Assembly: GCA_004138175.2 (NCBI GenBank)
Contig: RYFE02000017.1
Coordinates: 1 to 64,000 of the forward strand
Source of the DNA: Chloroflexales bacterium ZM16-3
Lineage (GTDB): Bacteria; Chloroflexota; Chloroflexia; Chloroflexales; Chloroflexaceae
Length of the DNA: 64,000 nucleotides
Reading direction: 5' to 3'
Below are positions 188-52,974 of the stretch, piece by piece. Numbering within the stretch: the first letter of the stretch is position 1; every line of letters starts with the position of its first letter. The translations under genes and the position numbers were made by a program. A model generated the notes under the pieces. The model made no database searches. It saw only the letters and a list, made by a program, of their open reading frames with translations, and was not told the origin of the DNA.

Positions 188-442
188 CTAGGCTGCGCTG
201 GTGTGGTCGCTGCTGATAAGCATGCTCATAGAGACCCGGAGCAGGGCCAGATTCTCGTTGGAGACGCGGGCAAGGGCCGCATCATCGGGGGATACAGCGC
301 CGGTGATCAGCAGAAGCGCACGCAGCCCGGCGGGCCAAGACGAGTCCCCCGCTGGATCAGTGTGACGACCGTGCCAGTGCTCCGTGCCGGGAGGCGGAAG
401 TATTGGGGCGTAAGGTGTATGTCGCACAGGAGGCATGATCAC
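188..442 (-). CDS. Small hypothetical protein (84 aa)
   Basis: The frame starts at an ATG with a purine-rich ribosome site (aggagagga) about six bases upstream, which is the main reason to believe it. The protein is Pro- and His-rich at the N-terminus (residues 4-25), with no signal peptide, membrane span or known motif. It is convergent with the left-edge gene across the 124-171 palindrome. A non-coding spacer remains possible. Confidence 0.4.
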   Translation of the reverse strand: MIMPPVRHTPYAPILPPPGTEHWHGRHTDPAGDSSWPAGLRALLLITGAVSPDDAALARVSNENLALLRVSMSMLISSDHTSAA

Positions 443-566
443 TCCTCTCCTAGATACTTAAACGACAGTGTAGAGCCAAGCGCCGCCCTCGTCAAGGGGA
501 TTTCGTAGATTGGGTGAGATGTATTGCCTCAGACCAGCGAATCGCCGTGGGGCAGAAGCCCTCTGA

Positions 567-5621: not shown

Positions 5622-5727
5622 GGAGCCCGGCCCCACCCTTGTTTTTATTGTGGCGGGCGGCTTCGCCGCCCGCCACAATAAAAGAGATTCTTGGGGTGGC
5701 TTCGCCACCCCAAGGCCCCACCGGGGC
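5622..5727. repeat. Multi-hairpin GGCTTCGCC element, copy 1
   Basis: Two adjacent hairpins, 5644-5682 (tttattgtggcggg... arms) and 5690-5714 (cttggggtgg... arms), both close on ggcttcgcc. A short GC hairpin follows at 5714-5727. The linker reads agattctt. Copies in the other orientation are at 41273-41373 and 51353-51452, with different stem bases but the same plan. Confidence 0.75.
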
Positions 5728-41272: not shown

Positions 41273-41409
41273 TTGGGGGTGGCTTCGCCACCCCCAAGAA
41301 TCTTTTTTTGGTGGTATGTGGCGGCTTCGCCGCCACATACCACCAAAAAGCCAGGTCTGGGGCGCAGCCCCAGGGCCTGCCGTTAGGGACGCAGCGCGCT
41401 GCATCCCTA
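41273..41409. repeat. Multi-hairpin GGCTTCGCC element, copy 2, plus GTAGGGGCGC palindrome
   Basis: Hairpin a at 41273-41297 (ttgggggtgg arms), a T7 run, hairpin b at 41303-41348 (tttttggtggtatgtgg arms, closing on ggcttcgcc), A5, then hairpin c at 41357-41373 (ctggggcgcagccccag). An imperfect tagggacgcagcg palindrome follows at 41384-41409, whose end is the TAG stop of the BMP gene. Confidence 0.8.
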
Positions 41410-49490: not shown

Positions 49491-50507
49491 TTAGCGGCCC
49501 CGCCCCACCGCATCGGCCACGGCGGCGATCCTCGGCATCAGGGCGGCGAAGTTCTCGGGGTTGAGCGACTGGCCGCCGTCGGACTTGGCGCGATCCGGGT
49601 CGGGGTGTACCTCAAGGATGAGCCCATCGGCGCCGGCGGCGATGCTGGCGAGCGCCAGGGGGGCCACCAGGTACCACTTGCCGGTGCCATGGCTGGGGTC
49701 GGCGATCACAGGGAGGTGGGTGCGCCGCTTGGCCACCGCCACCGCGTTCAGGTCCATCGTGTTGCGGGTGGCCGTCTCGAAGGTGCGGATGCCGCGCTCG
49801 CAGAGGATGACATTCGGGTTGCCCTGAGCGATCACATACTCGGCGCTGAGCAGCCACTCCTCGATTGTGGCCGAGAGGCCACGCTTGAGCAGGACGGGCA
49901 GACCGGTGCGGCCGACCTCCTCCAGGAGCTGGTAGTTCTGCATGTTGCGCGCGCCGATCTGGAGCATATCGGCGTAGCGCGCAACCAGATCCACGTCGCC
50001 GGGGGTCATCACCTCGGTGACAACCGGCAGGCCCGTCTCCTCGCGGGCCTGGGCCAGGAGCTTGAGCCCCAGCTCGCCGAGGCCGCGGAAGGTGTAGGGC
50101 GAGGAGCGCGGCTTGAAGGCGCCGCCACGCAATATTGTGGCACCAGCCTCGCGCACGACCCGCGCCGCCTCCATGATCTGCTCCTCGCTCTCGACCGAGC
50201 AGGGTCCGGCCATCACCACCACACTGCCGCCGCCCACCTTCACCCCGCGAACATCGACGATCGTATCGTCGGGGCGCACCTCGCGAGAGACAAGCTTGTA
50301 GGGGTGGGTGATCCGCACCGTCTCCTTGACGCCGCGAAAGTGCTCCATCTCCTCGCGCAGGGTGGGCGGGATCGTGGCGCCAACCACAGCCACCACCGTG
50401 CGCTCCACGCCAATGGTCAGGTGGCCCTGCAGGTCGTACTCCTTCAGGCGCTCAAGCACAGCGTCAATATCGGTTCTATCCGATCCGGTCTGCATCACGA
50501 CGATCAT
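49491..50507 (-). CDS. aroF: 3-deoxy-7-phosphoheptulonate (DAHP) synthase, AroF-type with N-terminal regulatory domain
   Basis: Condenses phosphoenolpyruvate and erythrose-4-phosphate, the first step of the shikimate pathway. The 338-residue protein has a ferredoxin-like N-terminal domain (residues 1-75) and a TIM barrel with [43 protein letters not shown] and [12 protein letters not shown]. This is the type I-beta/KDO8P-synthase-like group. The ATG at 50507 has gaggagga seven bases upstream. An in-frame ATG at 50609, with its own ggag, would add 34 residues. It is second in an operon with chorismate mutase under a predicted attenuator. Confidence 0.95.
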
Positions 50508-50640
50508 AGAGCGGTCCTCCTCTTTCTCAGGCTGATCACTGGCAACGGCGGGCGCGGGCATGAGCAGCAGGGTGCTTCCAGATCCGGCCTCGTGGACAAT
50601 TGGGCGCATCTCCGTTCTCCCAGAAAAGAGCGCCGGTGGA

Positions 50641-51054
50641 CTACTCGGCACTGGCGGATTCGGGCGGCGTATGGAAGGCCGCCAGCCTGGCAGCGTGCTC
50701 GGGGCGCAGGTTCCCGGCGCCACGCAGATAGACGTGGACGATCTCGCTCGACTGGCGCTCGGTGTTCCAGTGGACGAGCACGCGGACGCAGCGCGGCAGG
50801 CTGCCGGACACGGTCATCTCGTGGCCACACATCAGGGCGGTGTCAAGCCAGCCTAGCTCGCGGGCGGCGACGGCGGGGAACTCGGCGTTCAGGTCGGGCG
50901 TGGTGGTAAAGAACGCGCTGGCGATATCATCAGGCCGCAGGCCGTTGGCCGTGATCATGGTCTGGAGCATCTCGCGGGTGGCGGCGAGGATGGCCTCACG
51001 GCTGTTCTCGTCGCAGGTTGTTGCGCCGCGCACGCCTCGGCACCAGATGGTCAT
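50641..51054 (-). CDS. aroH: Chorismate mutase, AroH type
   Basis: A 137-residue monofunctional mutase converting chorismate to prephenate for Phe and Tyr. AroH-fold residues are visible: [15 protein letters not shown] at the N-terminus (substrate Arg near residue 7), [19 protein letters not shown] near 75 (active-site Glu and Arg), and [13 protein letters not shown] near 108 (Tyr and Arg). The ATG at 51054 follows agaggg. First structural gene of the operon, 212 bases after the predicted transcription start, with aroF following. Confidence 0.95.
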
Positions 51055-51092
51055 AGATCCCTCTCTCTGCGTATATATGGCCGGAAACACAG

Positions 51093-51126
51093 AGAGGGCG
51101 TGAGGCTCAGTCGCCTCACGCCCTCT
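51093..51126 (-). terminator. Predicted attenuator hairpin upstream of aroH
   Basis: A perfect 14-bp stem AGAGGGCGTGAGGC/GCCTCACGCCCTCT with a 6-base loop, followed on the minus strand by ctgtgtttcc. It lies between the stop of the Phe/Tyr leader peptide and the aroH ribosome site. The U-rich tail is short, so termination efficiency is uncertain. Confidence 0.7.
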
Positions 51127-51154
51127 GAACAAAGTTGTCTATCGACAGGGGTTC

Positions 51155-51232
51155 CTAGACAGTGCGAAGCGACCGGACCATATGTGGGCCGGTAAAGTAA
51201 TAGAAGGAGAAGCTGTTGGCCAGATTTGGCAT
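51155..51232 (-). CDS. Phe/Tyr-rich leader peptide (25 aa) of the aroH-aroF operon
   Basis: A short frame ATG 51232 to TAG 51155 encodes MPNLANSFSFYYFTGPHMVR plus five residues. Codons 8-13 are Phe-Ser-Phe-Tyr-Tyr-Phe, i.e. five aromatic control codons in six. An inverted repeat ACCGG...CCGGT (51172-51193) begins right after the last Phe codon, and the terminator-like hairpin follows at 51093-51126. This is the layout of ribosome-mediated attenuation in pheA-like leaders. The ribosome site is weak (gagtagagc). Assignment is by pattern; there is no homologue to compare. Confidence 0.7.
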   Translation of the reverse strand: MPNLANSFSFYYFTGPHMVRSLRTV

Positions 51233-51272
51233 TGGTTAGCTCTACTCAATTACCATTCGTCGCTATGGGCTG

Positions 51273-51301
51273 ACTATAGCATAGGGAGCGCGGGGCGTCA
51301 A
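51273..51301 (-). promoter_or_regulatory. Sigma-70-type promoter of the aroH-aroF operon
   Basis: -35 TTGACG (51296-51301), a 17-base spacer, and extended -10 TGC-TATAGT (51273-51278). Predicted start near 51266, 34 bases before the leader-peptide ATG. One of the two best-spaced promoters in the window. Confidence 0.8.
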
Positions 51302-51352: not shown

Positions 51353-51452
51353 TGCGGGGGCGGCTTCGCCGCCCCCGCAGTATTTTTTGTTGGGTTTGGG
51401 CGGCTTCGCCGCCCAAACCCAACAAAAAGCCGGATCTGGGGCGAAGCCCCAG
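51353..51452. repeat. Multi-hairpin GGCTTCGCC element, copy 3
   Basis: Hairpin a 51353-51379 (tgcgggggcgg arms), T6, hairpin b 51383-51428 (ttttgttgggtttgggcgg arms), A5, hairpin c 51436-51452 (ctggggcgaagccccag). Same order as copy 2. It ends 8 bases from the stop of the ANTAR regulator, where the T-flanked stem could terminate in both directions. The 405-base gap 51055-51459 holds this element and the aro leader. Confidence 0.8.
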
Positions 51453-51459
51453 GACTTTT

Positions 51460-52044
51460 CTAGGAGCCGAGCAACTCCTCAGCCTCGATAATCGCCTGGG
51501 CGATATCCTTCATCTTCGCGCGCTTATCGCGGGCGCGCTGGCGCAGACGCTCGTAGGCGTCACGCTCATTCAGCCCGAGGCGCTGCATAAGGATACCCTT
51601 GGCGCGCTCGATCAGCTTGCGGGCCTCCAGCGAGTCCTCAAGCTCGTCGACGTGGGCGCGCAGGCCCTGGATCTCTTTGAAGCGGGCCAGGGCGATATTG
51701 ATCGCGGGAGGAAGCTCATTCTCATTCACCGGCTTGACAAGGTAGGCCAGAGCACCGGCCGCCTCGGCCTTGCGCACCGTCTCTTTGTCAGCATAGGCCG
51801 TCAGCATAATGATCGGCACAGCCATCTGGTCGCGGATGCGGGCCGCCGCCTCGGTGCCCTCCATCTCGGGCATCCGAATGTCCATCATAATCAGATCCGG
51901 CTTGAGACGGTTGGCCAGCGTGATCGCCTCCGCGCCGTTGCGGGCGATCCCGATCACATCGTAGCCGAGGCCCTTCAGCTGCTCCTCAAGCGTGAGTGAG
52001 ACAAGGTCGTTATCCTCGGCGATCAGGATCCTGGTTGCAGCCAC
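51460..52044 (-). CDS. Response regulator with ANTAR RNA-binding output domain
   Basis: A 194-residue regulator. Receiver: acidic pocket AEDND near residue 10, phospho-acceptor Asp55 in LIMMDIRMPEMEG, Thr in IIMLTAY and Lys in YLVKP. A linker helix (residues 120-140) leads to the ANTAR domain (LEARKLIERAKGILMQRLGL, then NERDAYERLRQRARDKRAKM and DIAQAIIEAEELL), which binds paired hairpins in mRNA leaders and prevents termination. No histidine kinase is adjacent. The start is GTG 52044 with gagg upstream. It stands directly upstream of the aro leader. Confidence 0.93.
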   Translation of the reverse strand: MAATRILIAEDNDLVSLTLEEQLKGLGYDVIGIARNGAEAITLANRLKPDLIMMDIRMPEMEGTEAAARIRDQMAVPIIMLTAYADKETVRKAEAAGALAYLVKPVNENELPPAINIALARFKEIQGLRAHVDELEDSLEARKLIERAKGILMQRLGLNERDAYERLRQRARDKRAKMKDIAQAIIEAEELLGS

Positions 52045-52914: not shown

Positions 52915-52974
52915 AATGTTGAATGTTGAATGTTGAATGTTGAATTCAACATTCAACATTCAACATTCAACATT
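52915..52974. repeat. Perfect (TGAATGT)n inverted array
   Basis: Four aatgttg units meet their exact complement at an EcoRI-like gaattc centre, a perfect 60-bp palindrome. It fills the gap between the methyltransferase stop and the phosphatase start. Confidence 0.95.

Follow-up and report, generated by a model that had tools for sequence, protein, structure and literature searches.

A predicted Phe/Tyr leader-peptide attenuator ahead of the aroH-aroF operon in Oscillochloris and other Chloroflexota

Is the aroH-aroF operon of this bacterium governed by a ribosome that reads Phe and Tyr codons in a short frame ahead of it? A sequence-only reading of the locus had proposed such a Phe/Tyr attenuator, and we examined the proposal by folding and by comparison with related genomes. 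The window, that is, the whole 64,000-nucleotide stretch of DNA analyzed here, comes from a bacterium of the genus Oscillochloris (order Chloroflexales, phylum Chloroflexota), in agreement with the phylum guessed in that reading. On its minus strand, an ANTAR response-regulator gene (51460-52044) is followed by a promoter, a leader ORF, an inverted repeat, a 14-bp hairpin, the aroH ribosome site, and aroH. The first operon gene, aroH (50641-51054), encodes a type I chorismate mutase (PF07736/TIGR01796), and the second (49491-50609; PF00793/TIGR01361) encodes an aroF-type DAHP synthase of the B. subtilis type, the start codon of which is uncertain (50609 or 50507). The products of both genes serve the synthesis of chorismate-derived aromatics, and wherever a Chloroflexales locus extended far enough, aroF was located 3′ of aroH. 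Two kinds of palindrome also occur in the window. The GC-rich palindrome GGCGGCGAAGCCGCC, found at 51353-51413, 41320-41334, and 5656-5670, has four exact copies in the window versus 0.08 expected and resembles a palindromic element dispersed between genes, while a long near-perfect palindrome of repeated GAATGTT/AACATTC units lies between two genes at 52918-52968.

The promoter (51273-51301, minus strand) is of the sigma-70 type, TTGACG-17-TGCTATAGT, with TTGACG starting at 51301, a 17-nt spacer, and an extended -10 element, TGC-TATAGT, reaching 51273. The consensus scan gave 10/12 matches plus the TG, and transcription is predicted from the sequence to start near 51266. Downstream, a 25-codon leader ORF (51155-51232, minus strand) encodes MPNLANSFSFYYFTGPHMVRSLRTV followed by a stop, and carries the control codons Phe8-Ser-Phe-Tyr-Tyr-Phe13 at 51194-51211. 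An inverted repeat, ACCGGCC-cacata-tGGTCCGGT (51193-51172), begins immediately 3′ of codon 13 and forms the hairpin of segments 1 and 2 (ACCGGCC/GGTCCGGT; 51172-51193). A perfect 14-bp hairpin at 51126-51093 constitutes the terminator, which with its T-containing tail, CTGTGTTTCC, spans 51083-51126. The promoter, the 25-codon frame, the inverted repeat, and the 14-bp hairpin were all confirmed by direct reading at the coordinates first assigned to them.

An attenuator also needs an alternative fold, and it was here that the sequence-only reading fell short: its Phe/Tyr attenuator controlling aroH-aroF is supported by fold and comparison, but the key part, the antiterminator, had been missed. 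The antiterminator strand, segment 2 (CGGTCGCTTCGCACTGTCTAG; 51155-51175, minus strand), lies within the end of the leader ORF, and its partner, segment 3 (51108-51126), is the 5′ arm plus loop of the terminator. The last leader codons, CGGTCGCTTCGC (51175-51164), pair over 12 contiguous bases with 51119-51108. Because segment 2 thus engages the terminator 5′ arm and loop, antiterminator and terminator are mutually exclusive. In the window, the antiterminator fold reached -33.5 kcal/mol (z -3.45) and the terminator region -32.2 kcal/mol (z -4.2), so that the two are about equally stable as modelled. The 213-nt leader as a whole folded with a z of -3.7, and none of 200 shuffles was equally stable.

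Next to the fold, comparison within the order showed the short frame to be conserved. An AroH was identified in 59 of 61 genomes sampled from the genus, family, and order to which the window belongs, and all 59 carried an aromatic-rich leader ORF upstream of aroH (at least 4 aromatics in 7 codons). These ORFs start approximately 140 to 330 bases before aroH and hold 4 to 7 aromatic codons per 7-codon window, the densest reaching 8 aromatics in 8 codons; at the named Chloroflexales loci tested, only 0-3 of 100 base shuffles matched the observed run. Aromatic residues occupied the last three control codons in 53/59, 54/59, and 59/59 leaders, respectively, the last codon being the anchor of the count. 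The aromatic codons adjoining segment 1 are the most conserved, as the geometry of the proposed stalling would require. Phe, Tyr, and Trp interchange freely within the run of the relatives; the window's control codons are Phe and Tyr, and Trp codons were found in 13/59 leaders, among them those taken as Roseiflexaceae, indicating that some relatives may pool Phe, Tyr, and Trp. Furthermore, a promoter of the form TTGACR-17/18-TGNTATAGT was present at a similar distance upstream of the leader in 56/59 relatives (0.17% in shuffles), which speaks against a transcription start downstream of 51155. In one relative (L023, genome G034), the region from the leader stop to aroH showed leader and 3′ arm present and the terminator 5′ arm absent, which reflects a true deletion or else a hairpin collapsed in the assembly.

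Compensatory changes were then counted in an alignment of 38 leaders. In the terminator, 96.8% of cells were paired and 8/14 pairs had changed on both sides; in the 1:2 hairpin, the values were 89% and 3/6. Jointly, 11/20 pairs had changed on both sides, a count reached by 0/500 shuffles. The antiterminator was 85% paired, versus 38-49% when its partner was slid by 1-3 columns. Within the order, 6/18 of its pairs had changed on both sides, a number that 132/500 shuffles also reached; we attribute this modest covariation to the same bases also serving the terminator and the code. The segment-2 codons are near-fixed (CTT in 33/36, CGC in 34/36), and in L035, L036, L043, and L047 the block lies in another reading frame, e.g., giving S-G-C-F for W-L-L-R. 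Since its nucleotides are kept across reading frames, segment 2 is conserved as RNA and not as peptide. Terminator loops vary in length from about 4 to 8 bases, and the tails of the relatives contain a mean of 5.7 T of 10 versus 2.2 in background. A U tract after the terminator and before the structural genes is thus present in relatives and marginal in the window, where CTGTGTTTCC is poor and interrupted (5 T in 10) and is surpassed by that of several sister species.

Sequence and comparison together established the promoter, the ORF, the control codons, three alternative helices, and the operon. Judged from these parts, aroH-aroF expression is very probably tied to charged tRNA-Phe and tRNA-Tyr by a ribosome-mediated transcription attenuator. 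Transcription would start near 51266, and the 25-codon leader would be translated behind RNA polymerase. Under a shortage of Phe or Tyr, the ribosome would stall on the final aromatic codons (11-13), masking segment 1 and leaving segment 2 free to pair with segment 3 once the latter is transcribed; segment 4 could then not form the terminator, and polymerase would read into aroH and aroF. With ample Phe and Tyr, the ribosome would reach the stop codon and mask segment 2, so that segments 3 and 4 would make the hairpin and transcription would end before aroH. Translation, stalling, and termination, as well as how strongly and in which direction the operon responds, are what we infer here.

Folding with a masking ribosome agreed with this scheme. 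With the ribosome stalled at the last control codons, segment 3 of the unfinished RNA was paired upstream in 42/42 leaders, and with the ribosome moved to the stop codon it was so in 0/42. Without a ribosome, segment 3 was still paired upstream in 39/42; the 1:2 hairpin is short. In full-length equilibrium folding the terminator usually won, also when a stalled ribosome was modelled, indicating that the decision must occur while transcription is under way, as it does in known attenuators.

The same structures could also act on translation, a stalled ribosome freeing or blocking the aroH ribosome-binding site. Base pairs can form between the Shine-Dalgarno region, CGCAGAGAGAGGG, and the 3′ portion of the hairpin, CCCTCTCTGTG; this pairing is present in the minimum-energy fold of the window, and the duplex beats shuffles in L001, L003, L004, and L005 (z -3.2 to -4.7). 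Nevertheless, it was strong (z < -2) in only 14/51 relatives and absent in L002, L008, L009, and L012, the T-rich tails of most relatives suit termination rather than translational attenuation, and the antiterminated state would free the anti-Shine-Dalgarno strand, which gives the wrong sign. We consider translational attenuation improbable and rejected Shine-Dalgarno sequestration as the main mechanism, because it is not general among relatives; in Oscillochloris it might add a further layer of control.

Two further explanations would take the decision away from the stalled ribosome. ANTAR domains bind RNA and prevent termination, and the neighboring regulator (51460-52044, minus strand), which lies directly upstream of the attenuator, has such a domain (PF03861) and keeps this position and strand in roughly half of the relatives; it might therefore be the antiterminator protein of this leader. 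Leader, hairpins, and promoter are kept, however, in L005, L020, L022, L025, L030, L053, and others, in which no ANTAR gene is near. The variable terminator loops are unlike ANTAR targets, which have conserved hexaloops, and a protein antiterminator would leave the tandem aromatic codons and the in-ORF antiterminator unexplained. Retention of the leader without the gene led us to reject this role, which we regard as highly improbable. A functional leader peptide (an arrest peptide or small protein) combined with a constitutive terminator has the apparent conservation of the C-terminal part (S/L-L-R-T/V) in its favor. That conservation is at the nucleotide level, as shown by the frame-shifted leaders and the fixed synonymous CTT and CGC described above; moreover, Phe, Tyr, and Trp replace one another freely in the aromatic run, and other families combine unrelated leader C-termini with matching antiterminators. 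We therefore give the functional peptide next to no credence.

Beyond the order, a phylum-wide draw of 161 genomes yielded AroH in 81, and 15 of 60 further upstream regions had 5 or more aromatics within 8 codons. Most of these 15 belong to the well-sampled family f11, with a peptide like MLKSARWFAYFYFYGFR..VGGA and a terminator, GAGCGAGACC/GGTCTCGCTC followed by T, that is accompanied by a new antiterminator strand. In one of the 15, L214, our scan gave no convincing terminator. Records from Ardenticatenia, Caldilineae, and Anaerolineae contained leader, terminator, and antiterminator, the sequences of which differ yet match one another. Segments 2 and 3 have changed in concert in other families, as in L087 (GTCCCACGCC/GGAGCGTGGGAC), and in L206 the antiterminator joins the strand CCGTTGG...GGCGCTT with AAAGAGCGAGACC-acaaCGG. 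Families f19, f22, f23, f36, f46, and f47 and the Dehalococcoidia were without an aromatic leader upstream of aroH. A short Trp-containing ORF of the latter, MWRWLLA(D/N)G, was rejected as a leader, since it is an out-of-frame reading of the apparent trpA 3′ end; this would place the Dehalococcoidia aroH behind trpA. In the Dehalococcoidia-type loci L089, L095, L101, L102, L130, and L140, aroH-aroF appears to come after trpA, and the Dehalococcoidia-type aroH is probably part of the trp operon. One Chloroflexi record, L107, carries a T-box leader (RF00230, 117 bits; 255-517, plus strand) approximately 2.5 kb upstream of aroH besides its aromatic leader. Taken together, the aromatic leader-peptide switch appears to be conserved across much of Chloroflexota. 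We lean toward an ancient attenuator that guards the entry to the shikimate pathway over much of the phylum and pools Phe and Tyr, joined by Trp in some lineages, in a single run of codons, its function being kept while the RNA segments were replaced in concert.

The element is specific to this operon: a covariance model found a single full-length copy in each genome, ahead of aroH, and its weaker matches were rejected as further copies, being partial and limited to the GC-rich hairpin. In eight Chloroflexota genomes, no aromatic leader was found before trpE, the prephenate dehydratase (PDT) gene, pheS, or tyrA, which showed at most 4 aromatics in 8 codons. At Rfam gathering thresholds, the window gave three tRNAs only, and no amino-acid leader family, T-box, or riboswitch. 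The initial remark that no aromatic leader-peptide attenuator was known from Chloroflexota held up in a literature search on leader-peptide attenuation in Chloroflexi, Chloroflexus, and Chloroflexota, which did not find this element, though an earlier description may exist, most likely in the comparative survey of attenuation across bacteria by Lopatovskaya et al. in 2010. If our reading is true, this would be, so far as we found, the first such attenuator described in the phylum. It would concern photosynthetic and thermophilic lineages (Oscillochloris, Chloroflexus, and Roseiflexus-type genomes) and also Anaerolineae, with codon control set on the pathway entry enzyme and not on pheA or trp. 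If the attenuator is also ancient, ribosome-mediated attenuation of aromatic synthesis would extend past Proteobacteria and Actinobacteria. The leaders collected here could serve directly to build a new Rfam family and to date the origin of ribosome-mediated attenuation.

By analogy, the logic proposed for the aroH-aroF leader is the textbook one of the trp, pheA, and pheST leaders. The proteobacterial Trp operon leader (RF00513) has a four-segment logic in which segment 2 overlaps the end of the leader ORF, and the Oscillochloris element shares both features; unlike that leader, it is predicted to sense Phe/Tyr, and Trp codons are confined to the leaders of some relatives. The E. coli pheA and pheST leaders form alternative antiterminator/terminator folds. 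Both the Oscillochloris element and its E. coli counterparts thus combine a Phe-codon leader peptide with an alternative antiterminator/terminator, whereas the targets are pheA and pheST in E. coli and a DAHP synthase operon in Oscillochloris. As summarized in PMC11802643, the E. coli pheA leader (pheL) and pheST leader are Phe-codon leader peptides with a biosynthetic or a synthetase target. Proteobacterial pheA had been named among the precedents, but a nearer one is aroR of Corynebacterium glutamicum, where a Phe-Tyr-Phe leader precedes the aroF operon, which encodes a DAHP synthase (Neshat et al. 2014, via PMC11802643). According to that account, ribosome stalling raises transcription, and the response is to Phe and not to Tyr (PMC11802643). 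Compared through this published description, aroR-aroF is the nearest described system, having in common with the Oscillochloris leader Phe/Tyr codons ahead of a DAHP synthase operon. It differs, as far as the description goes, in belonging to another phylum, in having three control residues (Phe-Tyr-Phe) versus five to eight aromatics in Chloroflexota, and in its controlled genes, the first of which in Oscillochloris is the aroH chorismate mutase.
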